In this document: positions 34,443-55,619 of the stretch, piece after piece | How positions within the stretch are numbered: position 1 is the first letter of the stretch | Layout of the letters: each line of letters opens with the position of its first letter | Assembly: GCA_035310145.1 (NCBI GenBank) | Contig: DATGEL010000048.1 | Span: 1-64,000 of the forward strand | DNA length: 64,000 bases | From: Dehalococcoidia bacterium | GTDB taxonomy: Bacteria > Chloroflexota > Dehalococcoidia > CAUJGQ01 | Reading direction: 5' to 3' | The notes under the pieces: model-generated | What the model was told of the DNA's origin: nothing | The model's database searches: none | The model's input: the letters and a program-made list of their open reading frames with translations, nothing else | Translations under genes and position numbers: made by a program

Positions 34443-34468
34443 TAGGTCCGTCGGGCGAGAGGGACCTA
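34443..34468 (-). terminator. Hairpin at the end of the interrupted GH26 gene
   Basis: TAGGTCC and GGACCTA arms of seven bases around a 12-base loop, overlapping the stop codon of the minus-strand GH26 gene. A weak terminator candidate; no T-run. Confidence 0.4.
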
Positions 34469-35632
34469 CGGCCAGTGCGAGAGGTAGTAGCTCGATGCGA
34501 CCGCGGCCGCGAAGGCCCGCTGCGCCGACGCCGATGAGGCGATGCGCCAGTCGTTGCCGTTGGCTTCAAGGTTGGTTTTGTCCTCGTTGAACCAGACGAC
34601 GGCGCGGATGCGCGGATAGACGTGGGGGATCTCGTCGGTGAAGGCATCCGCGATCCACTTCGCCTTGGTGTCGCCCTCGGCGGCCTGATTCGGCTGCTCG
34701 TTGGCGCTTGCCATCTCCGCGATCATCAACGGCCTGGCGGAGAGGGCCGTGATGCGGTCGTACGACGCGCCGAACAGTTGCTTGAACCAGAGCCAGCCGC
34801 TGGGGGCGAAGTTGTAGCCGTCCAGCGCCAGCCAGTCGACGTAGGCGTCGCCGGGAAAGTAGGGCTCGAAGGGAACGGTGGCGGCGCCGACATCGCTGTC
34901 CAGCACGTTCGGAGACCACACCCACTGCACGTTGGTGGCGCCGGCCGCGCTGAACAGGTCGTGCAGGCGCTGCCAGGCCGCGACGTACTTCTCCGGCGTG
35001 TTGGCGCCGTTCCGCCCCCAGGGATACCAGGAACCGTTCATCTCGTGCGCTCAGCGCAGCAGCACCGGCCGGCCGTATGTCGCGAGTTGCTGCGCCCAGC
35101 CCTGGATGTAGCTGTCGAACCTGCCGGCAATGATGTTGTCGAGGCCGTACGGCGTCTGGTCGGCGCCCGTGCGGAAGTCCGCCGGCGACCAACTGATGAG
35201 CGGCACCGAGCCGTGCTCTGCGATATTGCAGAGCCAGCTCGAATCAAGGGCGCCAGCGTCGGCGGCAAAGTCGCGCCAGAGCATGACGATGGCGACGTGC
35301 TTGCCGGCCTGCCGCTCGAAGTCCGCCAGCCGGCTCATATCCTCCGGAGCGCCGGGCTGCCAGACACCGAGATAGGCGCCTGGCGCCTGCGCTGTGGCGT
35401 CGGCCGAAGGATGTTTGTAGGCCTCGTTCAGTGGGCTGTGCGCCTCCGCACCGGGCGAGCACGGATCACCGGTGTCCTGCGCGACGTGCGCAGGGCTTTC
35501 CTCGTCGCCCAGTGAACTGCTCGGTCGCCGCCAGGCGAACGTCAGCAGCAACAGGCCGACAGCCACGATCGCGGCCAGGGCCAGCAGCGCGGCGGAGACG
35601 GATCGCGGCAGGCGCACGGCGCGCGGCAGCAT
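34466..35632 (-). pseudogene. Membrane-anchored GH26-like glycoside hydrolase interrupted by TGA in the catalytic motif
   Basis: Two segments in one frame, 193 codons then 191 residues, separated by TGA at 35053 down to 35051. Reading through gives RPVLLR-(stop)[11 protein letters not shown]. GH26 enzymes have R-x-x-H-E-M-N-G here, often with Trp at the interrupted position, so TGG to TGA is a likely change. Both catalytic glutamates remain in the sequence (HEMNG and LMIAEMASAN). The first segment has a membrane helix at about 10-35 and no lipobox. It is a single-domain relative of each half of the divergent 36197-38329 protein. The apparent start MNGSW of the second segment is only the catalytic Met. 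It is either a recent nonsense pseudogene, a sequence error or a recoded codon. Confidence 0.8.
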
Positions 35633-36004: not shown

Positions 36005-36115
36005 GTTGCAAGGACGAAAAGGCAAACCCATCGCGAGGTGGGGACGCAAAGCCACGGGTCCACCGCGCGGGCGCCTGTCCGCCGGGGGATCGCCGGGCTG
36101 CCGAAACGCTGCGAC
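36005..36115 (+). promoter_or_regulatory. Cyclic-di-GMP-I (GEMM) riboswitch aptamer
   Basis: The conserved core is unmistakable: GGCAAACC at 36021-36028, a P2 stem CCATC/GGTGG closed by the GNRA tetraloop GCGA, then GGGACGCAAAGCC at 36041-36053. The P3 3' strand follows in the CGCCGGGCTGCCG region (36091-36103). GTTGCA (36005-36010) pairs with TGCGAC (36110-36115) as P1. GEMM-I aptamers bind the second messenger c-di-GMP and control motility, adhesion and surface genes. The following 81 bases to the ATG contain a GCGCC-ACC-GGCGC stem and AGAAGGTGAT as ribosome site; no T-rich terminator is seen, so control may be at translation. Whether it turns the gene on or off is not clear. Confidence 0.93.
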
Positions 36116-36196
36116 AGGCCGAAGCGGCGCCACCGGCGCACGATTCCGCCTGCACCCGCACACCAGCAACGTTTTCCAGATCACAGAAGGTGATGC

Positions 36197-38329
36197 ATGG
36201 CGCAATCTGTGCGCGCCGCGCCCAATGCGCGGCGGCTTCAGGCATTCATGGCTCTTGCAGCAGCGCTGGTGGCGCTGCTGCTGGCGAGCGGCGTCGGGCG
36301 CCAGACTCCATCCGCCCAGGCGGGCGCGGGCGTCTTTCTCGGCGTCTGGCAGCCCGATCCCACCAAGGGATTGACGACGCTGCAGCAGTACGAAACGGAT
36401 GCGGGCAAGCATGCGGCGATCGTGATGTTCTGGCGCGACTGGGCGGCGGACGCCGGTTCGCTGGATCCGGCATGGTTGACGGCGATCGCCGCGCACGGCT
36501 CGCTGCCGCTGATCACGTGGGACCCGGCGAACTGGAGCGGTGGCGACCAGACGCCGTACTCGCTCGGCGCGATCGTTGCCGGCGGACAAGACGGCTACAT
36601 CAGCGGCTGGGCGCAGCAGCTCGCGGCCTACGGCCAGCCGGTGCTGCTGCGCATGATGGAGCAGATGAACGGCGCCTGGAACGCCAACTGGAGCGGCAAT
36701 CCCTCGGCGTTCATCGCAGCCTGGCGGCACATCCACGACCTCTTTGTGCAGGCAGGCGCCGGCAACGTGCGCTGGGTGTGGAGTCCGAACGTGTGGTACC
36801 AGTCTTCGCTGGCCACGGACGGCCGCGCCTATTACCCCGGTGGTGCCTACGTGGACTGGATCGGGCTGGATGGCATGAACATCTCCAGCCAGAGCTGGCA
36901 GACGTTCACGCAGCTCTTCCAGTACGCCTATTCCGCGTTGACGGCGTCGTATCCCGACAAGCCCCTCATCGTCTCGGCGACGGCAAGCGCTGAGGCGACG
37001 GCGGCGCAGGCCGCGCAGCGCCTGAGCAAGTCGAGCTGGATCAGCAGCGCCCTCTCCACGGAGATTCCCCGCAGCTTCCCGAAGCTTCAGGCGCTGATCT
37101 GGTTCAACGAGAAGACGATGAGCTCGCCGGCAGCCGCGTGCTGCGACTTCCGCATCGAGTCCTCGGCCGCGGCGCAGAGCGCCTACCGGAAGGCGGTCGC
37201 GAAGAGTTACTACATCGGGACGGCGCCCACCTTCCCGGCGGTGGTGTCCAACCCGACGCCATCTCCGACCGCCTCGCCCACGGCGAGCCCGACGCCCAGC
37301 CCCACGCCGAGCCCGACGCCTTCACCAACGCCTCCGCCAAGCGCAAGCCCCATGCCCAGCCCCACGCCGAGCCCAACGCCTTCACCTGGCCCCTCGCCTA
37401 CCCCAAGTCCCACGCCGCAGCCGCAGCAGGGTGTCTACATGGGCGTGTGGCAGCCGGATCCGACCACGGGCTCGCTGTCGACGCTGCAGCAGTTCGAGGC
37501 CGACGCGGGTAAGCATGCGGCGATCGTGATGTTCTGGATGGACTGGAATCCGCTGGACAAAGGCACGCTCGATCCGAACTGGTTGACGCTGATCGACCAG
37601 CACGGCTCAGTGCCGCTGATTACCTGGAACCCGGCCGACTGGAGCGGCGCGGACCAGACCAACTACACAACCGCAGCGATCGTGGCCGGCGTGCAGGACG
37701 CCTACATCACGAAGTTCGCCCAGCAGCTCAAAGCCTTTGGCAAGCCGGTGTTGCTGCGCACCATGCACGAGATGAACGGTAGCTGGTACACCAACTGGTC
37801 GGGCAATCCCAGCGCCTACATCGCGGCCTGGCGGCACATCCACGACCTCTTTGCCGGGGTCGGCGCCAGCAACGTGCAATGGGTCTGGTGCCCGAACTAC
37901 TGGTTCCCCGGCGAGCCGGATGCCACCCTCTATTATCCGGGCGACGCCTACACGGACTGGGTCGGCGTCGACGTCTACCAGGACGCCAACGCGGGCTATG
38001 CCAACCTCGACGGCGAGCTGGATTACAGCTATCAGCAGTTGACGGCGAAGTTCCCTTCGAAGCCGCTGATTATCCCCGAGATCGGCGCGGCCGAGCCGAC
38101 GGCCCAGCAGGCTGCGGCGGGCTACAGCAAGGCCGCCTGGATCAGCAACGCCTTCGCGACGGAGATCCCGCAGCGCTATCCGAAGATCCGGGCGTTGCTC
38201 TGGTTCAACGAAAACACGCTGGTCACGCAGGGGAACGGCGCTGACTGGCGCATCGAATCCAGCCCGGCGGCGCAGCAAGCCTACAAGCAGGCGGTGGCCT
38301 CGGGTTACTACCTGCCGCAGATGCCGTAA
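36197..38329 (+). CDS. Exported protein with two GH26-like domains, first one catalytically degenerate
   Basis: Protein of 710 residues. An N-terminal hydrophobic segment (about 17-34) serves as signal or anchor. Domain 1 is about 46-345, then a Pro/Thr/Ser linker at about 350-412, and domain 2 about 413-710. Both have the GH26 pattern from LGVWQPDP / MGVWQPDP to the final IWFNE / LWFNE. Domain 2 keeps the acid/base E525 (TMHEMNGSW) and nucleophile E628 (IIPEIGAAE). In domain 1 these are Q156 (MMEQMNGAW) and A261 (IVSATASAE), so it is probably a binding module. GH26 enzymes cut beta-mannans, mixed-linkage glucans or xylans; the target here is unknown. Controlled by the c-di-GMP riboswitch in its leader; AAGGTGAT precedes the ATG. 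A strong terminator follows. Confidence 0.85.
37294..37386 (+). repeat. 33-base direct repeat, 60-base period, encoding the Pro/Thr/Ser linker
   Basis: Copies at 37294-37326 and 37354-37386 differ at one base. They sit in the low-complexity linker coding region made of PSPTP-like units and look like expansion by slippage or unequal exchange. Confidence 0.8.
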
Positions 38330-42519: not shown

Positions 42520-42774
42520 GGCTTCCCCTCTCCTGCCCCACGCCACGGCCGCACGGGTCCGTTCGGGACGGTTGATCGTGCAGAGCGGGGTAGGCTTGCG
42601 CGGGGGGACAAGCGCACCGTACCACGCGGTTCGGCCCCAGACGACGACCCGGCGATTGTACTGCTCTAGCGGACTTTCCATCGAAATGTGTATCTGTCAT
42701 GATGCAACGCGTTCACCGGTTGCGGTCGGGTGAATCGGACGGCCTGGCTGGTTCGGCGAGGGAGGCCGATACGG

Positions 42775-43752
42775 ATGCAGCGGTCGAAGCGGGTGGACCT
42801 GTTCTCGGCGATGGCGAGCAGCGCCCTGCTGGCGATCGGCGGTGTGGTGCGCCTGCCTCCGGCGGAGAGCCAGAGCGAGCGGGGCTCGCGCGGTGGGCCG
42901 TCCGTCCGCTGGCCGGCCCACGCGGTGGATACCCGACCCTTCCCACGGCCGGCCGCTGTGCGACGGACGGGCGCGGTGCTGGTGGCGGTGGCACATCCGG
43001 ACGACGAAACCTTGATGATGGGCGGCACGCTGGCGCGCCTCGCCCATGAAGGCCGCCGCGTGGTGGTCGTCTGCGCCACGCGCGGCGAAGCGGGCGCGAT
43101 CGCCGATGAGCACCTTGCCACGCGCGCGACCCTGGGCGAGGCGCGTGAGCAGGAGCTGATTCGAGCCTGCCAGAGCCTGGGTATCGCGCGCCCGATCGTG
43201 CTCTCGTTTCCGGACGGTGGCCTGCAGGACGTCGACCCGCGCGACCTCGCCGAGCGCTTCGGCGAGGCTATACGCGGGGTAGGACCGTGTGTGGTCGTGA
43301 CCTGGGGTGCGGACGGAGGGTACGGCCATCCCGATCACATAGCCGTGCACGCGGCAGCCACCACGGCCTTCTTTCGCACCACGACCGAGGTCGGTGGCCC
43401 GGGCGCGCTCTACTACGTCCTGGTGCGGCAGCCACGCCTGGTGCGGCTCGTACGGCGGGTGAAGCGCCTCGCCCTCGCGCGTGGCCGAAGCGTGCGCCCG
43501 AACGCGGCGTCGCTGCGGCCCACCACGTACGTGGATGTCGCCTGTTTCAGCAAGGCGCGTCTGGCAGCCATGCGCGAGTACCGCAGCCAGCTTCCGGCCG
43601 ACCTTTGGCTGCGCGGCGTCAGCGGGCTGCTGTCGCCGCGCAACAACTTCGCCTTCTCGCGCGTCGAGCGCTTCAGCCGCGCCTACCCCGCCTTGCGGCC
43701 CGATGAACCGGCGGAGCAGGCGCTCTGGACCGGCTCCGCGCCCCCGCGCTAG
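42775..43752 (+). CDS. PIG-L/LmbE-family deacetylase
   Basis: Zinc-dependent N-deacetylase of 325 residues. Zinc motif AHPDDET (about residue 73) and the second motif GYGHPDHIAVH are intact. Family members remove acetyl groups from N-acetylglucosaminyl lipids, mycothiol precursors and similar sugars, so it fits a glycan locus. The ATG at 42775 has GGAGG nine bases before it; a GTG at 42730 is in frame. About 60 residues before the first zinc motif are not conserved and may include a weak hydrophobic stretch (AMASSALLAIGGVV). No gene follows for 627 bases. Confidence 0.9.
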   Translation: MQRSKRVDLFSAMASSALLAIGGVVRLPPAESQSERGSRGGPSVRWPAHAVDTRPFPRPAAVRRTGAVLVAVAHPDDETLMMGGTLARLAHEGRRVVVVCATRGEAGAIADEHLATRATLGEAREQELIRACQSLGIARPIVLSFPDGGLQDVDPRDLAERFGEAIRGVGPCVVVTWGADGGYGHPDHIAVHAAATTAFFRTTTEVGGPGALYYVLVRQPRLVRLVRRVKRLALARGRSVRPNAASLRPTTYVDVACFSKARLAAMREYRSQLPADLWLRGVSGLLSPRNNFAFSRVERFSRAYPALRPDEPAEQALWTGSAPPR

Positions 43753-43922
43753 CGTGCCGACGGCCAAAATTCAACAGGCCAGAGCCGTGCAAACACGCCT
43801 GAGTCACCGCCCCCGCGTCGGAAGCATGTGCATGGCGGTCGGGATCGGCGCTCACACCCGCGCCGCCGCCGATCGCCCGATGGGCGTGGCGTCACGATCC
43901 GGCCTTCGATAGCAGTTCTTTA

Positions 43923-43948
43923 GCATCTACGTAGAGATGACACTAAAC
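43923..43948. promoter_or_regulatory. 26-base element with palindromic core, copy 2
   Basis: Begins GCATCTACGTAGAGAT, with TCTAC-GTAGA as a perfect 10-base palindrome. It matches 35765-35790 at 21 of 26 positions. About 290 bases upstream of the probable promoter of the glycan operon. Confidence 0.55.
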
Positions 43949-44127
43949 TGAAAGCACTTAACACGGTACGTCAGGCGCATCCCCGCTATCCTGCCCCTGT
44001 GCCGGTAACGCCGCGCAGCCGCGTCGTGTCGTGGAAGGGCCGCCGGTCTGCCGCCGATCCGGCCCCCCTGCCGACGCTGCCGTTAATATCTGCCGTTGGC
44101 GCATACAGCAGTAGCTAACGCACGAAT

Positions 44128-44145
44128 ATACCGCATATGGGGTAT
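44128..44145. promoter_or_regulatory. 18-base near-perfect palindrome, operator candidate
   Basis: ATACCGCATATGGGGTAT: ATACC/GGTAT arms around CATATG, 16 of 18 bases symmetric. It is placed about 70 bases before the TTGACA element. Confidence 0.5.
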
Positions 44146-44211
44146 CGCAAGCTCGCTTTCGTGTAGACAACACGGACTCGTTCGTGTTCCTGTGAACGGT
44201 CGCCGAAACTA

Positions 44212-44247
44212 TTGACAAATACTTCAGGTATCGTCGATTGATATAAA
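44212..44247 (+). promoter_or_regulatory. Probable promoter of the glycan operon
   Basis: Consensus TTGACA at 44212-44217 and TATAAA at 44242-44247. The spacing of 24 bases is too long for one promoter, so either hexamer may pair with a weaker partner: GATTGA-like at 18 bases after TTGACA, or ATACTT-like 17 bases before TATAAA. The leader would be about 130 bases. Confidence 0.45.
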
Positions 44248-44379
44248 AATCCCGCCACACAGTGTCCATTCCCCGTAATGGCCAGGTATCTCCCAGCGCG
44301 AGCCGTGCGTAGAGACCAAGCGAAGAGTTTAAGGTTGCGCCTCACATCTTGGTGCGACAAAGCGAGAGGAGGTTCCGCT

Positions 44380-45144
44380 GTGCAAGCCAGCCCTCCGCAC
44401 GTACATACTCGTGCCGGTGAAGAGACGTTGCCCAGCGTCAGCGTCGTGATTCCGGCGTTGAACGAGGCCGAGAACCTGCCGCACGTTCTGCCCCGCATCC
44501 CCGCCTGGGTGGACGAGGTGCTTGTGGTCGACGGCCACTCGACGGACGGCACCGCCGAGGTCGCTCGTGCGCTGCGGCCGGGTGTGACGATCGTGACGCA
44601 GGAGGGCAAGGGCAAGGGCGCGGCCCTGCGCAGCGGCTTTGCGGCGGCCAGCGGCGACATCGTGGTCATGCTGGATGCCGATGGCTCGATGGACCCGGCG
44701 CACATTCCCGCCTACGTCGGCCTGCTGCGCACGGGCGCCGACTTCGTCAAGGGATCGCGCTTCTTGCAGGGCGGTGGTACGTCCGACATGCCGCTCTACC
44801 GCCGCATGGGCAACTCGGGCTTCGTGCTGCTCGTGCGCCTCGCCTTCGGCGGGCGCTACTCCGATCTCTGCTACGGCTACAACGCCTTCTGGCGCTGCCA
44901 CCTGGACGTACTCGAACTCGACGGCGACGGCTTTGAGATCGAGACGATGATGAACGTCCGCGCCCTGCGCGCCGGGCTCCGAGTCGCAGAGGTGCCGAGC
45001 TTCGAGGCGAAGCGCGTCTACGGCAACAGCCGCCTGCGCACCATTCCGGACGGCTTCCGCGTGCTGCGCACCATCCTGCGCGAGCGCTTCCGCCGCCAGC
45101 AAGCCGCGTCGCAGCCGCTCGAGCCAAGGCGATCCGACGCGTAA
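44380..45144 (+). CDS. GT2 glycosyltransferase (polyprenyl/dolichyl-phosphate sugar synthase-like)
   Basis: Protein of 254 residues, GT-A fold. Visible: SVVIPALNEAENLPHVLPRI, VLVVDGHSTDGTAEVA and the DxD-type motif LDADGSMDPAHIPAY, then a DPM1-like pattern GSRFLQGGGTSDM and CYGYNAFWR. There are no clear membrane segments, so it is cytoplasmic or peripheral. It probably makes a polyprenyl-phosphate sugar or adds an early sugar. The GTG at 44380 is selected because GAGAGGAGG is seven bases upstream. First gene of the long plus-strand run. Confidence 0.88.
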   Translation: MQASPPHVHTRAGEETLPSVSVVIPALNEAENLPHVLPRIPAWVDEVLVVDGHSTDGTAEVARALRPGVTIVTQEGKGKGAALRSGFAAASGDIVVMLDADGSMDPAHIPAYVGLLRTGADFVKGSRFLQGGGTSDMPLYRRMGNSGFVLLVRLAFGGRYSDLCYGYNAFWRCHLDVLELDGDGFEIETMMNVRALRAGLRVAEVPSFEAKRVYGNSRLRTIPDGFRVLRTILRERFRRQQAASQPLEPRRSDA

Positions 45145-45217
45145 GCCGGCGCCCGATCGGCGCCGGATCCTCTTGCCAGCGCCCCGCCGTACCGGCCACC
45201 TCGCAAGGAGGCCCAGC

Positions 45218-46213
45218 TTGACGGAAACCTCGGTTGTGATCTGCACGTGGACCGAAGATCGCTGGAACCAGCTTGCCGCCGCCGTCGCCTCGGTGCAGGC
45301 GCAAACCGAGCCGGCCAGCGAGTTGATCGTCGTCGTGGATCACAACGCCCCCCTTTACGAACGGGTCCGCCGTGAACATCCCGGCGTCGTCGCGGTGCAG
45401 AGCAGCGAGCCGCGGGGCGCGGCCGGCAGCAAGAACAGCGGCATCGCCCATGCCCGCGGCGAGTTCGTCGCCTTCCTCGACGACGACGCCGCGGCCGAAC
45501 CCGACTGGTTGGCCAGGCTGCGCGAGCCGTTTGCCGATCCGCGCGTGCTCGGCGTAGGCGGCACGGCGGCGCCGGTCTGGGAGAGCACGGAGACCCGCTG
45601 GTTCCCGCCGGAGTTCAACTGGATCGTCGGTTGCAGCTACGCCGGCCTGCCGCGCGGCAGCGCCTCCGTGCGCAACGTCTTCGGCTGCAACATGGCGTTC
45701 CGCGCCGAGACGTTGCGGTCGCTCGGCGGCTTCCGGCACGAGCTTGGCCGGGTCTGCGCGGATCCACTCGGATGCGAGGAGACGGAGTTCTGTATTCGCC
45801 TGGTGCAGCGCTGGCCCGGCAGCCTGCTGATGCACGAGCCCCGCGCTCGTGTGCGGCACCAGGTGCCGGCGGCGCGCAGCACCTGGCGCTACTTCCGGCA
45901 GCGCTGCTACGCCGAGGGGATCTCCAAAGCGCACGTCATCCGGCTTGTCGGCGCCCGCTCCGGGCTGGAGAGCGAGCGCCGCTTCGCCGCCTCGGTGCTG
46001 CCTGCAGCGGCCCTGCGCGCCCTCGCTGAGGGCCTTCGCCGCCGCGATGGCGCCGCCCTGGCGCGCTCGGGCGCCATCGTCGCGGGCCTGACAATCACCA
46101 CTGCCGGCTTTCTCACCGGCGCGGCTACCGGGCGGCTGTCGCGCCGGTCAGGGCCGCGGCAAGCAACGGCGCCATCGCTGCCCGGCGGGCTGCAGCGCCC
46201 GGAGCGATCGTGA
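45218..46213 (+). CDS. GT2 glycosyltransferase
   Basis: Protein of 331 residues: TSVVICTWTEDRW at the start, LIVVVDHNAPLYER, GSKNSGIAHARGEFVAFLDDD (GT2 acceptor and metal motif) and CNMAFRAETLRSLGGF, with EETEFCIR as the later acidic motif. The C-terminal region has one hydrophobic stretch (GAIVAGLTITTAGFLTGAAT), possibly a membrane anchor. Start TTG at 45218 is preferred because AAGGAGG is six bases upstream. The stop overlaps the next start (TGATG). Confidence 0.88.
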   Translation: MTETSVVICTWTEDRWNQLAAAVASVQAQTEPASELIVVVDHNAPLYERVRREHPGVVAVQSSEPRGAAGSKNSGIAHARGEFVAFLDDDAAAEPDWLARLREPFADPRVLGVGGTAAPVWESTETRWFPPEFNWIVGCSYAGLPRGSASVRNVFGCNMAFRAETLRSLGGFRHELGRVCADPLGCEETEFCIRLVQRWPGSLLMHEPRARVRHQVPAARSTWRYFRQRCYAEGISKAHVIRLVGARSGLESERRFAASVLPAAALRALAEGLRRRDGAALARSGAIVAGLTITTAGFLTGAATGRLSRRSGPRQATAPSLPGGLQRPERS

Positions 46214-47370
46214 TGGCCACCGTGCTGGAGAGACCGCGTGCAGCCGAGATCGCGCGGCGCCCCTTGCGGCTGCTGGTGGTCACGGCCAACTGCTTCCCGC
46301 ACATGGGCGGCATCGAGACGCATGTCTACGAAGTGTCGCGCCGGCTCGTCCGCGACGGCGTCGACGTGACCGTGCTGACGACCGACGCCTCGCATACCCT
46401 GCCGGCCGCCGAAGCGATCGATGGGGTGCAGGTGCGGCGGGTGCCGGCCTGGCCGGCCCACCGCGACTACTACTTTGCGCCGGGTATCTATCGCACGCTC
46501 GGTGAGGGCAGCTGGGATCTCGTCCACGTGCAGGGTTGCCATACGCTGGTGCCGCCGCTGGCGATGCTGGCCGCGCGCCGCGCCGGCATCCCCTATATCG
46601 TCACCTTTCACACCGGCGGGCACTCATCGCGGCTGCGGCAGGCGCTGCGCGGGGCGCAGTGGGCGGCGCTTGGCCCGCTGCTGCGCCGCGCCGACCGGCT
46701 GATCGGCGTCTCGCGCTTCGAGGCGGAGCTGTTCCGCCGGCGCCTGCGCCTGCCGGCCAGCCGCTTCGCCGTGATCCAGAACGGCGCGGAGCTGCCCGAT
46801 CCCGGCCCGGCCGCGGCGCCGCCGCAGAACGACGCGCCGCTGATCGTCTCCTTCGGGCGGCTGGAGCGCTACAAAGGCCACCAGCGGGCGGTGCAGGCGT
46901 TGCCGCTGTTGCGCGAGCGTCTGCCCGGCGCCCGCCTGCTGATCCTCGGCTCCGGTCCCTACGAGTGCGAGCTGCGCCGGCTGGCCGCGCGGCTGGGCGT
47001 GGCCCGCGCGGTCGAAATCACGAGCATTCCCCCGGCTGAGCGCGGCCGCCTGGCAGCGACGCTGCGCCGCGCCAGCCTGGTCACGCTGCTCAGCGAGTAC
47101 GAGGCGCACCCGGTGGCGGTGATGGAGGCGGCCGCGCTGCAACGCCCCGTGCTCGTGGCCGACACGAGCGGTCTGCGCGAGCTGGCGGAGCGCGGCCTGG
47201 CGCGGGCCGTGCCGCTGCACAGCTCACCCGCGGCGCTGGCCGAGGCGATGGCGCAGCAGCTCGATCGGCCCGCGGCCGCGACGCCGGCGCTGCCGACCTG
47301 GGACGGCTGCTCCCGCCGCCTGCTGGCGCTCTACCGAGACGTGCTTGAGGAGCGGCCGTGCGCATCCTGA
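46213..47370 (+). CDS. GT4 glycosyltransferase
   Basis: Protein of 385 residues, GT-B fold. N-terminal Gly-rich region FPHMGGIETHVYEVSRRLV and C-terminal donor-binding Glu motif SEYEAHPVAVMEAAALQRP. The segment IVSFGRLERYKGHQRAVQAL is typical of Glycos_transf_1. It uses a nucleotide sugar to extend a lipid-linked glycan in the cytoplasm. It overlaps the previous gene by one base and the next by 13, so translation is coupled. Confidence 0.92.
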   Translation: MATVLERPRAAEIARRPLRLLVVTANCFPHMGGIETHVYEVSRRLVRDGVDVTVLTTDASHTLPAAEAIDGVQVRRVPAWPAHRDYYFAPGIYRTLGEGSWDLVHVQGCHTLVPPLAMLAARRAGIPYIVTFHTGGHSSRLRQALRGAQWAALGPLLRRADRLIGVSRFEAELFRRRLRLPASRFAVIQNGAELPDPGPAAAPPQNDAPLIVSFGRLERYKGHQRAVQALPLLRERLPGARLLILGSGPYECELRRLAARLGVARAVEITSIPPAERGRLAATLRRASLVTLLSEYEAHPVAVMEAAALQRPVLVADTSGLRELAERGLARAVPLHSSPAALAEAMAQQLDRPAAATPALPTWDGCSRRLLALYRDVLEERPCAS

Positions 47371-48623
47371 TGTTGGCGCAGTTTTACCCGCCGACGATCG
47401 GCGGCGAGGAGCAGCACGTGCGCGCCCTCAGCGCCGAGCTGGCCGCGAGGGGCCATCGCGTGGCCGTGGCGACGCTCTGGCACGAAGGGCTGCCCGATTT
47501 TGAACGCGACGGCGCGGTGCGCGTCTACCGCATCAAGGGCACCGTGCAGCGCCTGCACCGGCTGTTCACCGACCAGGGGCGCCGCCACGCGCCGCCGCTG
47601 CCGGACCCGGAGCTGACGCTGGCGCTGCGCCGCGTGGTTGCGGTGGAGCGGCCGCAGATCGTGCACGGGCACAACTGGCTGGTGCACTCCTTCCTGCCGA
47701 TCAAGCGACAGAGCGGCGCGAAGCTGGTGATGACGTTGCACGACTTCAGCATGGTCTGCGTGCAGAAGAACCTGCTCTACCGCGACACCGTGCTCTGCAG
47801 CGGGCCGGCGTTGCGCAAATGCCTGCGCTGTGCCGCCGACCACTACGGCGCGGCGAAGGGACTGGTTACCTTCGCCGCCAACCGGGCTGCGGCGCGCTTC
47901 GAGCGCGGCACGGTGGATAAGTTCCTGGTGGTCAGCCAGGCGACGGCGACGGGCAACAGCCTGCCCGCGTGTGGCGTGCCATACGAGGTCATCCCCAACT
48001 TCCTGACCGACTCGGATGCCGCGGCGGCCGGCGACTATGCCGAATATGAGCCGTATCTTGAGCGCCTGCCCGACGAGCCGTACCTGCTGTTCGTCGGCGA
48101 TCTGCGCCGCTTCAAGGGCATCGAAGTCCTGTACCGAGCCTATGCGCTGCTCGACGACGCCCCGCCGCTGGTGATCATCGGCCGTGAGGCGCCCGACACA
48201 CCGGCGTATCTGCCGCGCAACACGCGCTGGCTCGGCGGTTGGCCGCACGGCGCCGTGCTGCACGCCTGGGGCGGGGCGCTCTTCGGCCTCGCGCCCTCGA
48301 TTGGCATCGAGACCTTCGGCCTGGTCGCGCTGGAGGCGATGGCGCGCGGCCGGCCCGTGATCGCCTCGAAGATCGGCGGCCTGGCGGACATCGTGGTGGA
48401 CGGCGAGACCGGGCTGCTGCTACCGCCGGGCGACGTGCTTGCACTGCGAGACGGCATGCAGCGCCTGCTTGAAGACGCGCCGCTGCGCGAGCAGATGGGC
48501 GCGGCGGCGCGGCGCCGGGCGGCGTGCTTCCGCGCCGACCGGGTCGTGACGCGCTTTGAAGAGACTTACCGGGCACTGTTGAACGACGAGAGCGCGGCGC
48601 CGGCGCAGGTGCGCTCGGCCTGA
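47358..48623 (+). CDS. GT4 glycosyltransferase
   Basis: Protein of 421 residues, GT-B fold. The N-terminal PPTIGGEEQHVRALSAELA, the middle YLLFVGDLRRFKGIEVLYRAY and the E-x7-E-type motif IETFGLVALEAMARGRPVIA are clear. It has an unusual Cys-containing segment (SMVCVQKNLLYRDTVLCSG ... CLRCAADHYG), which could bind a metal or be a structural insertion seen in a subset of GT4 enzymes. GAGGAG precedes the GTG start. Coupled with the upstream GT4 gene. Confidence 0.92.
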   Translation: MRILMLAQFYPPTIGGEEQHVRALSAELAARGHRVAVATLWHEGLPDFERDGAVRVYRIKGTVQRLHRLFTDQGRRHAPPLPDPELTLALRRVVAVERPQIVHGHNWLVHSFLPIKRQSGAKLVMTLHDFSMVCVQKNLLYRDTVLCSGPALRKCLRCAADHYGAAKGLVTFAANRAAARFERGTVDKFLVVSQATATGNSLPACGVPYEVIPNFLTDSDAAAAGDYAEYEPYLERLPDEPYLLFVGDLRRFKGIEVLYRAYALLDDAPPLVIIGREAPDTPAYLPRNTRWLGGWPHGAVLHAWGGALFGLAPSIGIETFGLVALEAMARGRPVIASKIGGLADIVVDGETGLLLPPGDVLALRDGMQRLLEDAPLREQMGAAARRRAACFRADRVVTRFEETYRALLNDESAAPAQVRSA

Positions 48624-48672
48624 CGGCGTGGTTCGGCGCCCGTACGCACGCAACCGGGAGGAAAGGGAAGCG

Positions 48673-49524
48673 ATGAGACGAGACGGACGCCACGATCAGC
48701 CGCCGGAGGTCGTAATCCTCTGCGGCGGCCGCGGCACACGCCTGGCCCCCGACACGGACGTGATCCCGAAGCCGCTGGTGAAGGTCGGCGGCCGGCCGAT
48801 TCTCTGGCATATCATGGCGCACTACGCCGGCTACGGCCTCAACCGCTTCGTGCTCTGCCTCGGCTACAAGGGCGAGATGATCCGGGACTACTTCCTGAAC
48901 TACCGCACGCACAGCAACGACTTCACCTTGCGGATGAATCACGGCGAGCCGCGGCTGACCACGCATCTCCAGGACGCCGTCGATTGGGAAGTGACCTGCG
49001 CTGAGACGGGCATCGAGGCGCAGACCGGCGCACGCATCCGCCGGGTCGAGAAGTACGTGCGCAGCCCCTACTTCCTCTGCACCTACGGCGACGGCGTCTG
49101 CGACGTGGACCTCGACGCGCTGATCGCCTTCCACCGGTCGCACGGGCGCATCGCCACGGTCACGGGCGTGCACCCGCCGGCCCGCTTCGGCGAGTTCATC
49201 CTCGGCGAGGAGGCGCGCGTCGCCCGCTTCGCGGAGAAGCCGACGCTGAATCCGCGCACGGGCCAGGGCTATGTGAACGGCGGCTTCTTCGTCTTCAACC
49301 GCGCCATGTTCGAGTACCTCGACTGGGACGACGGTTGCGTGCTCGAGCGCGGCCCGCTGGAGCGGCTGGCGACCGACGACGAGCTGCGCATCTTTCAGCA
49401 CGAGGGCTTCTGGCAGTGCATGGACACGCCGAAGGACCGCGAAATGCTGGACGAGATGCTGACGATGCGGCAGCGCATGCACGCGGCAGGGATCGGCGGC
49501 GTGCGCGCGGCAAGCGGCGTGTAA
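48673..49524 (+). CDS. rfbF: Glucose-1-phosphate cytidylyltransferase (RfbF family)
   Basis: Protein of 283 residues. The nucleotidyltransferase signature ILCGGRGTRLAPDTDVIPKP and KVGGRPILWHIM, and later YGDGVCDVDLDALI and VNGGFFVFNRAMFEYL are typical for RfbF, which makes CDP-glucose from CTP and glucose-1-phosphate. CDP-glucose feeds 3,6-dideoxyhexoses and other unusual sugars. GGAGGAAAGGGAAG precedes the ATG at 48673. The expected CDP-glucose 4,6-dehydratase of standard pathways is not recognisable next to it; the SDR protein downstream may serve instead. Confidence 0.9.
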   Translation: MRRDGRHDQPPEVVILCGGRGTRLAPDTDVIPKPLVKVGGRPILWHIMAHYAGYGLNRFVLCLGYKGEMIRDYFLNYRTHSNDFTLRMNHGEPRLTTHLQDAVDWEVTCAETGIEAQTGARIRRVEKYVRSPYFLCTYGDGVCDVDLDALIAFHRSHGRIATVTGVHPPARFGEFILGEEARVARFAEKPTLNPRTGQGYVNGGFFVFNRAMFEYLDWDDGCVLERGPLERLATDDELRIFQHEGFWQCMDTPKDREMLDEMLTMRQRMHAAGIGGVRAASGV

Positions 49525-49622
49525 CAGCCGGCCGCGAAGCCGGCGAACGAGTGCCGTCGGGCGCTTCCCGGCCGGAGCGCCCGACGGCTCTGGCTGGTTG
49601 ATTCATCGTGAAGGACGGGCGC

Positions 49623-50654
49623 ATGCGAGTTCTGGTAACCGGCAACCTCGGCTATATCGGTCCGGCGATGGTCTCCGCGCTGCTGGCGGCGGGGCACGAC
49701 GTGCGCGGGCTGGACAGCGGCCTGTTCGTCGAGGGTCGCCTCGAAGAAGGGCCGGCGGCGCCCACGCTCGAGCGCGATCTGCGCGACGTGCAGCCGGGCG
49801 ATCTGGCCGGCATCGAGGCAATCGTGCACCTCGCCAACCTCTCCAACGACCCGCTCGGACAGCTCGACCCGAAGCTGACCCACGCGGTGAACGTGGATGC
49901 CACCGTGCGGCTGGCGCGGCTGGCGCGCGAGGCCGGCGTGCGGCGCTTCCTCAACTCCTCCTCGTGCAGCGTCTACGGCGCGGCCGAGGAGGACTGGGTA
50001 GACGAGACGTCCGAGCCGCGACCGGTGACGGACTACGGCATCTCCAAGATCCGGGCGGAGGCACAGCTCGCGGCCCTGGCCAACGACGCGTTCTGCGTCG
50101 CCTCCTTCCGCAACGCCACGGCCTTCGGCTATTCGCCAAGCCTGCGCACCGACCTGGTCGTCAACGACCTGGTCACCGGCGCGCTGCTCAACGGGCAGAT
50201 CCGGCTCAACAGCGACGGCTCGGCCTGGCGTCCGCTGGTGCACATCGGCGACATTGCGCAGGCGTTCACCCTGGCGCTGGCGGCGCCCGCCGCCCGCCTC
50301 AACCGGGCGATCGTCAACGTGGGCGCGGACGAGCAGAACTACCAGATCATCGATGTGGCGCGGGCGATCGCCGAGCTGACGCCGGGGGCGCGGCTGAGCA
50401 GGGCCGAAGGCGCCGGCCCGGACAAGCGCAGTTACCGCGTGCGCTTCGGTCGCATCCGCGAGCTGCTGCCCGGCTTCGCCTGCGCCTTCGACCTGCGGCG
50501 CGGCGTCCAGGACCTCGTCGCCAACCTGCAGCGGGTCGGTTTCCGCAGCGCCGACGGCTGCGTGCGCCTGGCGCAGCTGCAACGCCTGCGCGACGCGGGC
50601 AACGTCGACGAGAGCCTGCGTTTCGTCGCGGGGGTACGGCCCGCCCCGCACTGA
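49623..50654 (+). CDS. NAD-dependent sugar epimerase/dehydratase (extended SDR)
   Basis: Protein of 343 residues. N-terminal NAD-binding motif VLVTGNLGYIGPAM, catalytic Tyr/Lys in DYGISKIRAE (YxxxK), and a Ser/Thr-rich SSSCSVYG before it. It acts on a nucleotide-linked hexose, presumably the CDP-sugar made by the upstream enzyme; whether it is an epimerase, 4,6-dehydratase or reductase cannot be settled by eye. ATG 49623 is preferred over the upstream GTG 49608 because AAGGA is eight bases before it. Confidence 0.86.
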   Translation: MRVLVTGNLGYIGPAMVSALLAAGHDVRGLDSGLFVEGRLEEGPAAPTLERDLRDVQPGDLAGIEAIVHLANLSNDPLGQLDPKLTHAVNVDATVRLARLAREAGVRRFLNSSSCSVYGAAEEDWVDETSEPRPVTDYGISKIRAEAQLAALANDAFCVASFRNATAFGYSPSLRTDLVVNDLVTGALLNGQIRLNSDGSAWRPLVHIGDIAQAFTLALAAPAARLNRAIVNVGADEQNYQIIDVARAIAELTPGARLSRAEGAGPDKRSYRVRFGRIRELLPGFACAFDLRRGVQDLVANLQRVGFRSADGCVRLAQLQRLRDAGNVDESLRFVAGVRPAPH

Positions 50655-50707
50655 TCGGCCGCGGCGCAGCCCGCGTCTCTTACCAAACCGCGTATACGGA
50701 GTAAAGC

Positions 50708-51256
50708 GTGCAGTTTACAGAGACGGCCCTGGTGGGCGCCTTCATCGTCGGGCTGGAGGAGCACGGCGATGAACGTGGCTTCTTCGCCCGCAGCTTTTGC
50801 GCGGAGGAGTTCCGCGAGCACGGCCTGCAGTCAGCGGTGGTTCAGTGCAACACGTCGTTCAATTACCAGCGCGGCACCCTGCGCGGCATGCACTATCAGT
50901 TGCCGCCCTCGGCCGAGGTGAAGCTGGTGCGCTGCACGCGCGGCGCGATCTACGACGTGATCGTCGATCTGCGTCCCGGTTCGCCCAGCTACATGCAGCA
51001 CATCGGCGTCGAGCTTTCGGCGGAGAACCGGCTGGCACTCTACGTGCCCGAGCTGTTCGCGCACGGCTACGAGACGCTGGCGGACGGCAGCGAAGTCGCC
51101 TACCAGGTGAGCGAGTTCTACGCGCCGGGCCGAGAGCGTGGCCTGCGCTTCGACGACCCGCGGCTCGCCATCGCCTGGCCGCTGCCGGTGCAGGTGATTT
51201 CGGAGAAGGATGCCGGCTGGCCGCTGCTGCCACAGCCGGCGGGAGCGCGATCGTGA
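50708..51256 (+). CDS. rfbC: RmlC-type 3,5-epimerase of a nucleotide keto-sugar
   Basis: Cupin of 182 residues, the usual length of dTDP-4-dehydrorhamnose 3,5-epimerase. Conserved features: FFARSFCAEEFREHGL, LRGMHYQ with the catalytic His, KLVRCTRGAIYDVIVDLR, and PELFAHGYETL. The C-terminal VSEFYAPGRERGLRFDDPRL is standard. In this cluster the substrate may be CDP- rather than dTDP-linked, since no RmlA/B/D is present. The next gene begins inside its stop codon (GTGA). Confidence 0.9.
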   Translation: MQFTETALVGAFIVGLEEHGDERGFFARSFCAEEFREHGLQSAVVQCNTSFNYQRGTLRGMHYQLPPSAEVKLVRCTRGAIYDVIVDLRPGSPSYMQHIGVELSAENRLALYVPELFAHGYETLADGSEVAYQVSEFYAPGRERGLRFDDPRLAIAWPLPVQVISEKDAGWPLLPQPAGARS

Positions 51257-52572
51257 TCATCGTGGACAGCGCTCTGCGCGCCCGCGAAGAGGCGCACGAC
51301 CCGATCAAGGTGGGCATGATCGGCGCCGGCTTCATGGCCCGCGGCCTGGCTAACCAGATCGTCAACTCCGTACCGGGCATGACGCTGGCCGCGATCGCCA
51401 ACCGCACCGTGGCCAAGGCGCGCCGCGCCTACGTTGAGGCCGGCTTGGATGAAGTCGTGGAAGTCTCCAGCGTCGCCGCCCTCAACCGCGCGATCGAAAC
51501 CGGCATTCCGGCGGTAACGCAGGATCCGCTGCTGCTCTGTGAGGCGGGCCGGATCGACGCGCTGCTTGAGGTGACGGGCACGGTCGAATACGCGGCGCAG
51601 ATCGTGCTGAAGGCGATCGAGCACCGCAAGCACGTCGTGCTGATGAACGCTGAGCTGGACGGCACGGTCGGCCCGATCCTCAAGACCTACGCCGACCGCG
51701 CCGGCGTCGTGCTCAGCGCCTGCGACGGCGACCAGCCCGGCGTGGAGATGAACCTCGTCCGCTTCGTGCGAAGCATCGGCCTGCGGCCGCTGGTCTGCGG
51801 CAACATTAAGGGCCTGCAAGACCCCTACCGCAATCCGACCACGCAGGAGGGCTTCGCCAAACGCTGGGGGCAGACGCCGTCGATGGTCACCAGCTTCGCC
51901 GACGGCAGCAAGATCTCCTTCGAACAGGCGATCGTGGCAAACGGCACGGGGATGTGCGTCTCGCAGCGCGGCATGATCGGCCGCGACTTCGCCGGCCACA
52001 TCGACGAGCTGACCCAGACCTACGACGTGGCCGAGCTCGAAGCGCTGGGCGGCATCGTCGATTACGTCGTCGGAGCGAAGCCGAGCCCCGGCGTGTACGT
52101 GCTCGCCGCGCACGACGACGCGAAGCAGCGGCACTATCTGAACCTCTACAAGCTGGGCGAAGGGCCGCTGTACAGCTTCTACACGCCCTACCACCTCTGC
52201 CACTTCGAGGCGCCGCTCTCGCTGGCGCGTGCCGTGCTCTTCCACGACGCGGTGCTCACGCCGCTCGCCGGGCCGCGCGTGGAAGTCGTGGCCACGGCGA
52301 AGATCGGCCTCAAGGCCGGCGAGACGCTGGACGGCATCGGCCAGTACATGACCTACGGCCAGTGCGAAAACGCCGACGTTACCGCGCGGGAGCGATTGCT
52401 ACCTATGGGCGTGGCCGAGGGCTGCCACCTGCTGCGCGATATCCCACGCGATCAGGTACTCACCTACGCCGATGTGACGCTGCCGCAGGGCCGGCTCTGC
52501 GACTGGCTGCGGCATGAGCAGCATCGCCGTTTCGGCGCCGGGACGCGGGCAGCGGCCGGGAGCGTCGCCTGA
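51253..52572 (+). CDS. NAD(P)-binding homoserine dehydrogenase-like protein with SAF domain
   Basis: Protein of 439 residues. Rossmann N-terminus IKVGMIGAGFMARGLANQI, a middle domain with LLEVTGTVEYAAQIVLKA and GDQPGVEMNLVRFV, and a C-terminal SAF domain (about 355-430, LLPMGVAEGCHLLRDIPRD). This family is repeatedly found in nucleotide-sugar clusters but its reaction is not settled to my knowledge; it may oxidise or reduce a sugar intermediate. It starts at GTG 51253 overlapping the RmlC-type stop. The open frame extends upstream to 50797 but that part is a shadow of the epimerase gene. Confidence 0.85.
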   Translation: MIIVDSALRAREEAHDPIKVGMIGAGFMARGLANQIVNSVPGMTLAAIANRTVAKARRAYVEAGLDEVVEVSSVAALNRAIETGIPAVTQDPLLLCEAGRIDALLEVTGTVEYAAQIVLKAIEHRKHVVLMNAELDGTVGPILKTYADRAGVVLSACDGDQPGVEMNLVRFVRSIGLRPLVCGNIKGLQDPYRNPTTQEGFAKRWGQTPSMVTSFADGSKISFEQAIVANGTGMCVSQRGMIGRDFAGHIDELTQTYDVAELEALGGIVDYVVGAKPSPGVYVLAAHDDAKQRHYLNLYKLGEGPLYSFYTPYHLCHFEAPLSLARAVLFHDAVLTPLAGPRVEVVATAKIGLKAGETLDGIGQYMTYGQCENADVTARERLLPMGVAEGCHLLRDIPRDQVLTYADVTLPQGRLCDWLRHEQHRRFGAGTRAAAGSVA

Positions 52573-52636
52573 GCGCGCCGACCGCGTGATCACGGTTCAC
52601 TCCGGGTGGAGGCTGGTGAGGAGGTGGCCCCAACAC

Positions 52637-54406
52637 ATGCTTGTCTTAGGGATTAACTGCTACTCTCACGACTCGTCGGCCGCGCTGCTGGACGGCGAGC
52701 GTATCGTCTTCGCCGCCGCTGAGGAGCGCTTTTCACGCATCAAGAAGGACCGCGGCTTTCCCGTCCAGGCCATCCGCGCCGCACTTGACCATGCCGGTGT
52801 CGAGCTTCGCGACCTGGACGCGGTCGCCTTCGGCTGGAACCGGCCGGGGGCGACGCCGCTGCACAGCTTCCGCCAGGCGCTGCGCGGCGAGATCGCACGC
52901 AGCGCCTACTGGACCTGGTTTCAACTGCTGGAGGCGGCGCGTGAGCAGGTGCATGGCTGCGGCAGGCGCCGGCTGCGCCGCGAGTTCGGGCGCGAAGCGG
53001 CACCGCTGCTCTACATCGATCATCATGAGGCGCACGCCTGGAGCGCGTTCGCACTCTCCGGCTTCGACGATGCGCTGGTGCTGGTGCTCGATGGGCGCGG
53101 CGGCTGGCAGGCCACGACCATCTACCACGGCCGCGAGGGGCGGCTGCTGCCGCGGCGCGTTTACCCCTATCCGCAATCGCTGGGCCTGTTCTACGAGGCG
53201 TTCACCGATCTGCTCGGCTTCGAACGGCTGGCGGACGAGTGGAAGGTGATGGGACTCGCCGCCTACGGCCGGCCCACGGTCGATCTGCGCGCCTACTGCC
53301 GCCGCACCCGCCATGGCTACCGCGTGAACGGCAAGGAGCTGGTTGGGCGGCACTGGAGCGACCTTTCCTACCTGCTCGAACGCTTCGGGCCGCGGCGCAA
53401 CCCGGAGGAGCACATTTCCCAACAGGACAAGAATCTGGCCGCCGCCGTGCAGCAGGCGACCGAGGAAGCCCTGTTCAGCGTCGTGCATGAAGGCGTGCGG
53501 CGCACGGGCAGCCGCAACCTCTGCCTGGCGGGCGGCGTGGCGATGAACTCCAAGGCCAACGGCAAGCTGCTCACCTCCGGCCTGATCGACCGCATCTTCG
53601 TTCAGCCGGCGGCCACCGATGACGGCACCGCGCTTGGCGCGGCCCTGGGCGCCTACGCGGCGCTGGGCCAGGCGGTGCCGCGCGCGGTCATGGAGGATGC
53701 CTACTTCGGACCGGAGTACGGCGAGCAGGAGATCGAGGCAGCGCTGCGGGCCTACAAGCTGCCTTGGCGCCGGGTGTGTGACGTAACGCGCGTGACCGCC
53801 CGGTTGCTCTGCCAGGGGCAGATCGTGGGTTGGTTCCAGGGCCGTGTGGAGTTCGGGCCGCGGGCGCTCGGCAACCGCTCGATCCTGGCGGACCCGCGTA
53901 GAGCGGAGATGAAGGATCGCGTCAACGAGAGCGTGAAGTTCCGCGAAGGCTGGCGGCCGTTTGCGCCCTCGTGTCTCGAAGAGCGGATGGCCGAGTACTT
54001 CACGCCGGCGCATCCCTCGCCCTTCATGATCCTCACCTTCGACGTGCGCCCCGACAAGCGCGACGTCATCCCCGCGGTGACGCACGCCGATGGCAGCGCC
54101 CGTGTGCAAACGGTGGGACGTGAAGTGAACCCGCGCTACTGGGAGCTGATCGCGGAGTTCGACCGGCTGTCCGGCGTGCCGGTGCTGCTCAATACCTCGT
54201 TCAACCTGCGCGGCGAGCCGATCGTCTGCTCGCCGAAGGACGCCATCCGCACCTTCTACTCGTCTGGGCTGGACTTTCTCGTCCTCGGCGACTTCGTCGT
54301 GACGAAGGGCGGCCGCGGCCACGATCTGCTTGATCAGGCGCTGACCGCGGAGCCAGCGGTCGGGCCAAGACCCCGCAAGAAGGCCGTCGCGGCGGCCCGA
54401 CCATAA
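52637..54406 (+). CDS. Carbamoyltransferase (NodU/CmcH family)
   Basis: Protein of 589 residues. N-terminal Kae1-like domain with LGINCYSHDSSAALLDGE, the metal site HHEAHAWSAFALSG, GGVAMNSKANGKLL, and the C-terminal YrdC-like part FQGRVEFGPRALGNRSIL. It transfers a carbamoyl group from carbamoyl-adenylate, made from carbamoyl phosphate and ATP, to a hydroxyl of a sugar or antibiotic. Here the acceptor is probably a glycan sugar. The ATG at 52637 follows GAGGAGG by about 12 bases; the upstream open frame is not conserved. Confidence 0.92.
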   Translation: MLVLGINCYSHDSSAALLDGERIVFAAAEERFSRIKKDRGFPVQAIRAALDHAGVELRDLDAVAFGWNRPGATPLHSFRQALRGEIARSAYWTWFQLLEAAREQVHGCGRRRLRREFGREAAPLLYIDHHEAHAWSAFALSGFDDALVLVLDGRGGWQATTIYHGREGRLLPRRVYPYPQSLGLFYEAFTDLLGFERLADEWKVMGLAAYGRPTVDLRAYCRRTRHGYRVNGKELVGRHWSDLSYLLERFGPRRNPEEHISQQDKNLAAAVQQATEEALFSVVHEGVRRTGSRNLCLAGGVAMNSKANGKLLTSGLIDRIFVQPAATDDGTALGAALGAYAALGQAVPRAVMEDAYFGPEYGEQEIEAALRAYKLPWRRVCDVTRVTARLLCQGQIVGWFQGRVEFGPRALGNRSILADPRRAEMKDRVNESVKFREGWRPFAPSCLEERMAEYFTPAHPSPFMILTFDVRPDKRDVIPAVTHADGSARVQTVGREVNPRYWELIAEFDRLSGVPVLLNTSFNLRGEPIVCSPKDAIRTFYSSGLDFLVLGDFVVTKGGRGHDLLDQALTAEPAVGPRPRKKAVAAARP

Positions 54407-54458
54407 CACGGCCGGCGCGCCGCGCCCCCGCCCTGGGCGTGCCGTGTGGAGACGGATT

Positions 54459-55619
54459 GTGACCCCTGCGTTCTCGGTCTTTATCCCGGTGTGGAACGAC
54501 GCCGAGTGGCTGGGCGGCGCGATCGAAAGCGTGCGCGCCCAGACGTACCCACACTGGGAGCTGGTGATCGGCGACAACGACTCGAACGACGACCTGCGCG
54601 CCCTGGTCGCGGCCTATCCCGACCCGCGCATTCGTTATAAACACTGGCGCACCCACGTCGACACCTACAGCAACTTCAACCGTACAGCGCTGCTTTGCGA
54701 CTACGACTGGCTGCAACTGCTCTCCGCCGACGACCGGCTGCATCCTGCCTGCCTGGAGCGGATGGCGTCGCGCATCACCGCGCCGGCGGTAAGCGGACGA
54801 CGGCTGGCCCTGGTGGTCACGGCCTGCCGGCGGGTGACGCCGGAGGGCACGCCGGCCGAGCGCCGGTACTACGGCTCGCAGCGCGTCAAACGCGGCTGCG
54901 ACGGGCGCTACACCGCCCGCTCCTGGCTGAAGCTGCTGGCCGAGCCGGGCATGCCGGAGTGGAACATCGGCTCGATCGCCGTGGCGCGCGACGTGCTGGC
55001 CGAGATGGGCGGCTTCTTTCGCCCCGAGGTCGGCCTCTGCTCGGACCACGACTTCACGCTGCGCGCCGCCGCCTACGGCGACGTGGCCTACATCAGCGCG
55101 CCGCTGCTGGAGTACACCGTGCGCGGCCGCTCGGACGGCAACCAGCGCTTCATGCAGAACCGCACCAGCGGCGAAGCGTCCACGCCGATGGGAGCGGCGC
55201 TGCTCTCCGGTCTGGCAACGCACCGTTCGCGCCGCCCGGTCGCGCCGGCCGAGCAGCGCATGGTGCGTGCCGCCGTCGCCCGATCACACCTGCAGCGCGC
55301 CGGCCAGCATCGCATCCTGCCGGGCGGCCGCGGCCGTCGGGGCGCCGTGGCTGACGTGGCGCGTGCCGTCGTTTGCAGCCCGCGCACCCTGCTCTCGCCG
55401 GAGCTGTTGCTGACCGCGGCGGCCTCCGTCGTTGCGCCGCGCGTCGCCGTCCGTTGGGGCAGCGCCGCCCTTGCCTGGCGCCGGGGCAGAGAGCACGAGC
55501 GCGCCGCTCAGGCGGGGCCGATCCCAGGGGCAACGGCAGCGGCGCAGAAGCAGCCGGCACTCAACGGCGCATGTTCGGCGCCGGCCGGCGCGCCCTCGGC
55601 GCGAGCCGCGCGATGCTGA
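54459..55619 (+). CDS. GT2 glycosyltransferase
   Basis: Protein of 386 residues. GT2 features: FSVFIPVWNDAEWLGGAIES, WELVIGDNDSNDDLRALV and the metal motif LLSADDRLHPACL. Later EVGLCSDHDFTLRAAAYGD supplies the acidic acceptor motif. The last 120 residues are Ala/Arg-rich with one hydrophobic stretch (LLLTAAASVVAPRVAV), perhaps a peripheral membrane part. GTG 54459 has GGAG seven bases upstream; GTG 54444 is also possible. It overlaps the GMC gene by seven bases. Confidence 0.86.
   Translation: MTPAFSVFIPVWNDAEWLGGAIESVRAQTYPHWELVIGDNDSNDDLRALVAAYPDPRIRYKHWRTHVDTYSNFNRTALLCDYDWLQLLSADDRLHPACLERMASRITAPAVSGRRLALVVTACRRVTPEGTPAERRYYGSQRVKRGCDGRYTARSWLKLLAEPGMPEWNIGSIAVARDVLAEMGGFFRPEVGLCSDHDFTLRAAAYGDVAYISAPLLEYTVRGRSDGNQRFMQNRTSGEASTPMGAALLSGLATHRSRRPVAPAEQRMVRAAVARSHLQRAGQHRILPGGRGRRGAVADVARAVVCSPRTLLSPELLLTAAASVVAPRVAVRWGSAALAWRRGREHERAAQAGPIPGATAAAQKQPALNGACSAPAGAPSARAARC

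Follow-up and report, generated by a model that had tools for sequence, protein, structure and literature searches.

The gene for a secreted two-domain GH26 protein, found in the 64 kb stretch of Dehalococcoidia DNA analysed here (the window), very probably carries in its leader a type II c-di-GMP-I riboswitch that sets how much of the protein is made. c-di-GMP is the bacterial 'settle down' messenger, and it is sensed by this well-known riboswitch type. The aptamer itself is confirmed; that the leader binds ligand and regulates the gene, we infer from its sequence. The locus is small and lends itself to testing: a single transcript brings together a second messenger, its RNA sensor and one secreted glycosidase, in a group whose members are mostly uncultured.

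Table 1 Features of the riboswitch, its GH26 target and related elements (window positions unless a genome locus is given)
Feature	Position	Strand	Basis
c-di-GMP-I aptamer with its weak outer P1 helix	36008-36112	+	Rfam RF03167/RF01051, model R1, fold
GGCAAACC core element	36021-36028	+	
G20-equivalent, ligand-contacting guanosine by homology	36021	+	invariant in 34/34 class aptamers
P2 stem with GCGA tetraloop	36022-36047	+	fold; P2 pairs covary, 34 sequences
GCGA tetraloop capping P2	36033-36036	+	
GGGACGCAAAGCC core element	36041-36053	+	
A47-equivalent, canonical A	36048	+	CGCAAA here, CGCGAA in RF03167 consensus; alignment A2
P3 stem, extended, without 11-nt GAAA tetraloop receptor	36051-36098	+	fold, covariation, loop/receptor table
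C92-equivalent, ligand-contacting cytidine by homology	36101	+	invariant C91/C92 columns, alignment A2
Putative expression-platform region	36107-36196	+	alternative pairing competes with P1; weak, tentative mechanism
Shine-Dalgarno-like AGAAGG	36185-36190	+	
Secreted two-domain GH26 protein, 710 aa	36197-38329	+	PF02156 E 1.4e-24, two stretches
Signal peptide, residues ~1-43 of the GH26 protein		+	read from sequence
GH26 domain 1, catalytically degenerate	36335-37222	+	alignment; AlphaFold; Foldseek
Domain 1 acid/base Glu to Gln (Q110)	36662-36664	+	
Domain 1 nucleophile Glu to Ala (A215)	36977-36979	+	
Pro/Ser/Thr-rich inter-domain linker	37223-37435	+	translation
GH26 domain 2, both catalytic glutamates kept	37436-38326	+	alignment, PDB profile match
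Domain 2 catalytic glutamates	37769-37771 and 38078-38080	+	HEMN and PEIG motifs
Divergent GH26 paralog, one in-frame TGA (35051-35053) just before HEMN	34466-35632	-	
Host riboswitch L001, before secreted GH18 (chitinase-like) protein	G000:C110:18985-19073		

Aptamer, subtype and leader

Covariance-model searches, which a preliminary description of this DNA had proposed as a check, identify a c-di-GMP-I aptamer at 36012-36106 (+). Rfam model RF03167 matches at 63.1 bits against a gathering threshold of 59 (E 1.5e-12) and is the only match above gathering in the 64 kb window; RF01051 finds the same element in a whole-genome search at 61.6 bits against a threshold of 35 (E 2.4e-11). A class-specific model, R1, scores the element at 67.5 bits, with the same sequence included in its training set. 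The core elements and GNRA-capped P2 singled out in that description lie where it had placed them. At the positions equivalent to G20, A47 and C92, the ligand contacts of Vc2 (PMC11218506), the aptamer carries G, A and C, and all three are invariant across the 34 class aptamers of alignment A2, in which both P2 and P3 show covariation. Significance comes from the covariance models, as folding energy alone gives none: the aptamer folds no better than its shuffles (z -0.18), and the whole leader no better than shuffled sequences. Since thermodynamics alone would have missed the element, what carries the case is its conserved pattern of sequence and structure.

The P1 pairing claimed earlier is borne out only in part. 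Two of its three pairs in the Rfam model are non-canonical, but an alternative register with J1/2 one base shorter provides the inner pairs C36015-G36103 and G36016-C36102 and, beyond an internal loop, a 3-bp outer helix (G36008-A36010 with U36110-C36112). Even so, P1 is a weak helix that internal loops interrupt. Two more aptamers of the class have the shorter J1/2, one in the same genome (L001) and one in the same family (L011).

Type II c-di-GMP-I aptamers are defined by a GYRA tetraloop and the lack of a tetraloop receptor (PMC11218506). Here the loop is GCGA and P3 holds no CCUAAG/UAUGG-like receptor, and its sequence makes it a standard c-di-GMP-I aptamer of this GYRA-loop, receptor-less form. 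It shares with type II members the core, P2 and P3, the GCGA loop, the G20/A47/C92 set and a place in the 5' leader of a secreted-protein gene, and differs in its weak P1, one-base-shorter J1/2 and long, GC-rich P3. Across the 34 class aptamers, the loop type of P2 goes hand in hand with the receptor in P3, with L061 as the exception: nearly all GAAA loops accompany a receptor-like P3 sequence, and GCGA, GCAA, GUAA and GAGA loops mostly accompany a plain P3 helix without one.

The GH26 start codon lies 90 bases past the aptamer on the same strand, with no gene between, a spacing comparable to the +88 of two other class members (L001 and L016). Scanning the leader revealed neither an intrinsic terminator nor a match to the sigma-70 promoter consensus. 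A terminator switch is not favoured because no terminator was seen, and we infer control at the level of translation. The lowest-energy unliganded fold of the leader opens P1 (-100.9 kcal/mol, against -97.3 for aptamer plus P1), a gap of 3.6 kcal/mol that ligand binding could bridge. In this model, bound c-di-GMP would stabilise the three-helix aptamer with P1 closed; closing P1 would alter pairing along the following 90 bases, as far as the Shine-Dalgarno region, and the altered pairing would set the amount of GH26 protein made. Constrained folding predicts that, of three folded lengths, two have a less accessible Shine-Dalgarno sequence when P1 is closed, and the third shows about the same accessibility either way. 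The predicted change is slight and varies with the stretch chosen for folding. From these ensembles comes a weak lean, at best slightly better than even, towards a translational OFF switch; we claim no direction, because the accessibility effect is uneven over lengths and shuffles fold with energies just as good.

Two other readings of the leader deserve weighing. RF03167, the best-scoring Rfam model, is labelled c-di-GMP-I-GGC, and its slight lead over RF01051 would fit a true GGC variant that differs from a plain c-di-GMP sensor in which ligand it prefers or how tightly it binds. The GGC of the name may be read as G20-G47-C92, and this is where the aptamer departs from the model: position 47 is a G in the RF03167 consensus, whereas A36048 stands here and A47 accompanies G20 and C92 in all 34 class aptamers. 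We rejected the GGC identity on this ground, and for the same reason the best-scoring label is not the best description. A G20A change goes with cGAMP binding (PMC6274999); G36021 is kept, so this mark of a cGAMP-sensing GEMM-I variant is absent, and the chance of a GGC-type aptamer with altered ligand choice seems very slim. It is improbable, too, that the aptamer is a relic, decayed or without function, or belongs to a transcript without control over the GH26 gene. The weak P1, the leader's lack of a terminator or promoter match and the neutral folding z-scores speak for decay, but the conserved core is intact, the aptamer shares the gene's strand and lies 90 bases before the ATG with no gene between, the spacing resembles that of other class members and the short J1/2 recurs in L001 and L011.

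The secreted GH26 protein

The preliminary description's secreted, two-domain GH26-like target is borne out by PF02156, which matches the protein in two stretches. The two domains it had named are both present but are not equivalent, as domain 1 lacks both catalytic glutamates and domain 2 retains them. Both are kept in all 37 other aligned rows, most of which were found with a HEMN-containing pattern, which biases the count for the acid/base residue and leaves that for the nucleophile unbiased. A HEMN-free genome search recovered 22 relatives, every one of which keeps the pair.

A family profile built from both domains finds endoglucanase H/CtLic26A, a GH26 lichenase (PDB 2bv9, 2cip), as its closest PDB match (E 1.3e-69). 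Modelled by AlphaFold (pLDDT 93.3), domain 1 aligns with CtLic26A in Foldseek at E 8e-26 and TM 0.80; the full-length structure, predicted without an alignment, was unusable (pLDDT 40.7). The protein thus resembles CtLic26A in fold, full-length sequence match and the glutamate pair of domain 2, and is set apart by its tandem duplication, by an identity of only ~31-32% in domain 1 and by Gln and Ala at the catalytic sites of that domain.

Domains 1 and 2 are sisters in the GH26 tree (support 100/96) and therefore arose by tandem duplication. Domain 1 sits on a branch (0.29) no longer than the one for domain 2 (0.44), which hints at continuing constraint on domain 1. On the simplest reading, the secreted product would combine a dead module that probably binds glycan with an intact one that probably cuts a beta-glucan-like polysaccharide, and such a pseudoenzyme-enzyme tandem yields clear predictions on binding and cutting. 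A divergent paralog on the opposite strand has no aptamer of its own within the window; its in-frame TGA comes from recent pseudogenisation or from a fault in the assembly.

The riboswitch-GH26 pairing across the class

The host genome (5.3 Mb, 148 contigs) holds 13 GGDEF domains and five c-di-GMP-I riboswitches, one of them before the GH26 gene. The other four precede genes for a secreted GH18 protein, Flp pilins, a CAP-domain protein and a further secreted protein. In a survey of 393 genomes of the class, 83 contain an RF03167 match and 10 a GH26 relative. Scanning contigs with a single sequence returned no relatives of the two-domain protein; an alignment query found them.

One further pairing emerged, on contig WHTO01000010.1 of Dehalococcoidia bacterium Dino_bin39 (G031), where 88 bases separate a riboswitch from the start of the GH26 gene that follows it. 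Comparing the leaders of homologous genes, as suggested earlier, turned up an aptamer at a GH26 gene of another clade, but at only 2 of ~100 GH26-like loci in all; among 80 more GH26 loci from named genomes, it occurred only on that same contig. Because the Dino_bin39 gene groups in the tree with its own paralog, in a clade apart from the window's GH26 genes, the link probably arose twice. For the six other genomes with both elements, a rough estimate puts the adjacencies expected by chance at ~0.01, and 1 was seen, the expectation being riboswitches times GH26 genes at ~1 gene per kb, a figure that leaves out the enrichment of secreted proteins among targets.

The two GH26-linked aptamers share a rare GCGA loop. 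Searching for this loop uncovered two more real aptamers, one preceding a GH5 gene (G271), the other a subtilase gene (G226). Descent of both GH26-linked aptamers from one ancestral unit is unproven, because the GH26 clades differ and GCGA loops also precede the GH5 and subtilase genes. The GH5 case (L154, G271:C191:8029-8059) sits before a cellulase-like gene.

Targets elsewhere in the class are broad, and include Tad/type IV pilins, subtilases, CAP proteins, a phosphodiester glycosidase, sigma factors, histidine kinases and GGDEF and HD-GYP proteins. Four riboswitches (L042, L044, L059 and L061; the first two and the last Pfam-tested) precede genes for sigma-70-family factors, and such targets would relay the c-di-GMP signal to an entire sigma regulon. 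Two others lie before an HD-GYP gene (L012) and a GGDEF/HD-GYP gene (L064), an arrangement that suggests feedback on the turnover of c-di-GMP itself. Together, the survey raises the possibility of RNA-level c-di-GMP control over pili, subtilases, CAP proteins, glycosidases, sigma factors and the messenger's own turnover enzymes.

Window positions 42730-58620 contain genes for a PIG-L deacetylase, two family-4 glycosyltransferases, a carbamoyltransferase and a GMC oxidoreductase, along with a weak polysaccharide-biosynthesis match. This region is likely a glycan or glycosylated-product cluster.

Glycan turnover and known systems

The RNA link between c-di-GMP and glycan turnover proposed in the preliminary description is plausible at this locus, given the 13 GGDEF domains, the four additional riboswitches and the Dino_bin39 pairing. 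It is not new in kind, because c-di-GMP riboswitches upstream of chitinase genes had already been noted (PMC6366702).

What the link would serve is a matter of competing readings. The GH26 gene might belong to a general secreted-protein regulon, with its connection to glycan turnover a coincidence. The breadth of targets in the class, from pilins and subtilases to kinases and GGDEF/HD-GYP proteins, and the presence of an aptamer at so few GH26 loci, fit that view; it is weakened by the recurrence of the GH26 pairing in a second family, above the chance expectation (itself blind to secreted-target enrichment), and by the recurrence of other glycosidases (GH18, GH5 and the phosphodiester glycosidase) as targets. 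We give coincidence a substantial minority share. Close to an even prospect is that the protein serves as a messenger-controlled, nutrient-scavenging glucanase acting on plant or microbial material rather than remodelling the cell's own matrix: its closest solved relative, CtLic26A, is a mixed-linkage beta-glucanase, and the protein is secreted with no anchor seen. Glycosyltransferase and polysaccharide genes ~8-20 kb downstream of the GH26 gene and the pilus and surface character of co-regulated genes point the other way, neither decisively. The boldest reading, in which Dehalococcoidia use repeatedly acquired riboswitches to let c-di-GMP tune secreted GH26, GH18, GH5 and subtilase proteins that remodel their own matrix, the dead duplicate GH26 domain targeting the active one to the matrix glycan, is one that we consider doubtful.

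In the papers searched, a scope that leaves most subscription journals outside, we found neither a GH26 target of a c-di-GMP riboswitch nor the dead-live domain tandem. The nearest known systems are the c-di-GMP riboswitches described or predicted before gbpA in Vibrio and before chitinase genes in Aeromonas hydrophila (PMC6366702). The pairing of riboswitch and GH26 gene is real and unusual, and it adds to this known theme without starting another: like the gbpA and chitinase leaders, it places a riboswitch upstream of a secreted glycan-active protein, and it differs from them in the GH26 family, the dead duplicate domain and the setting in Chloroflexota.
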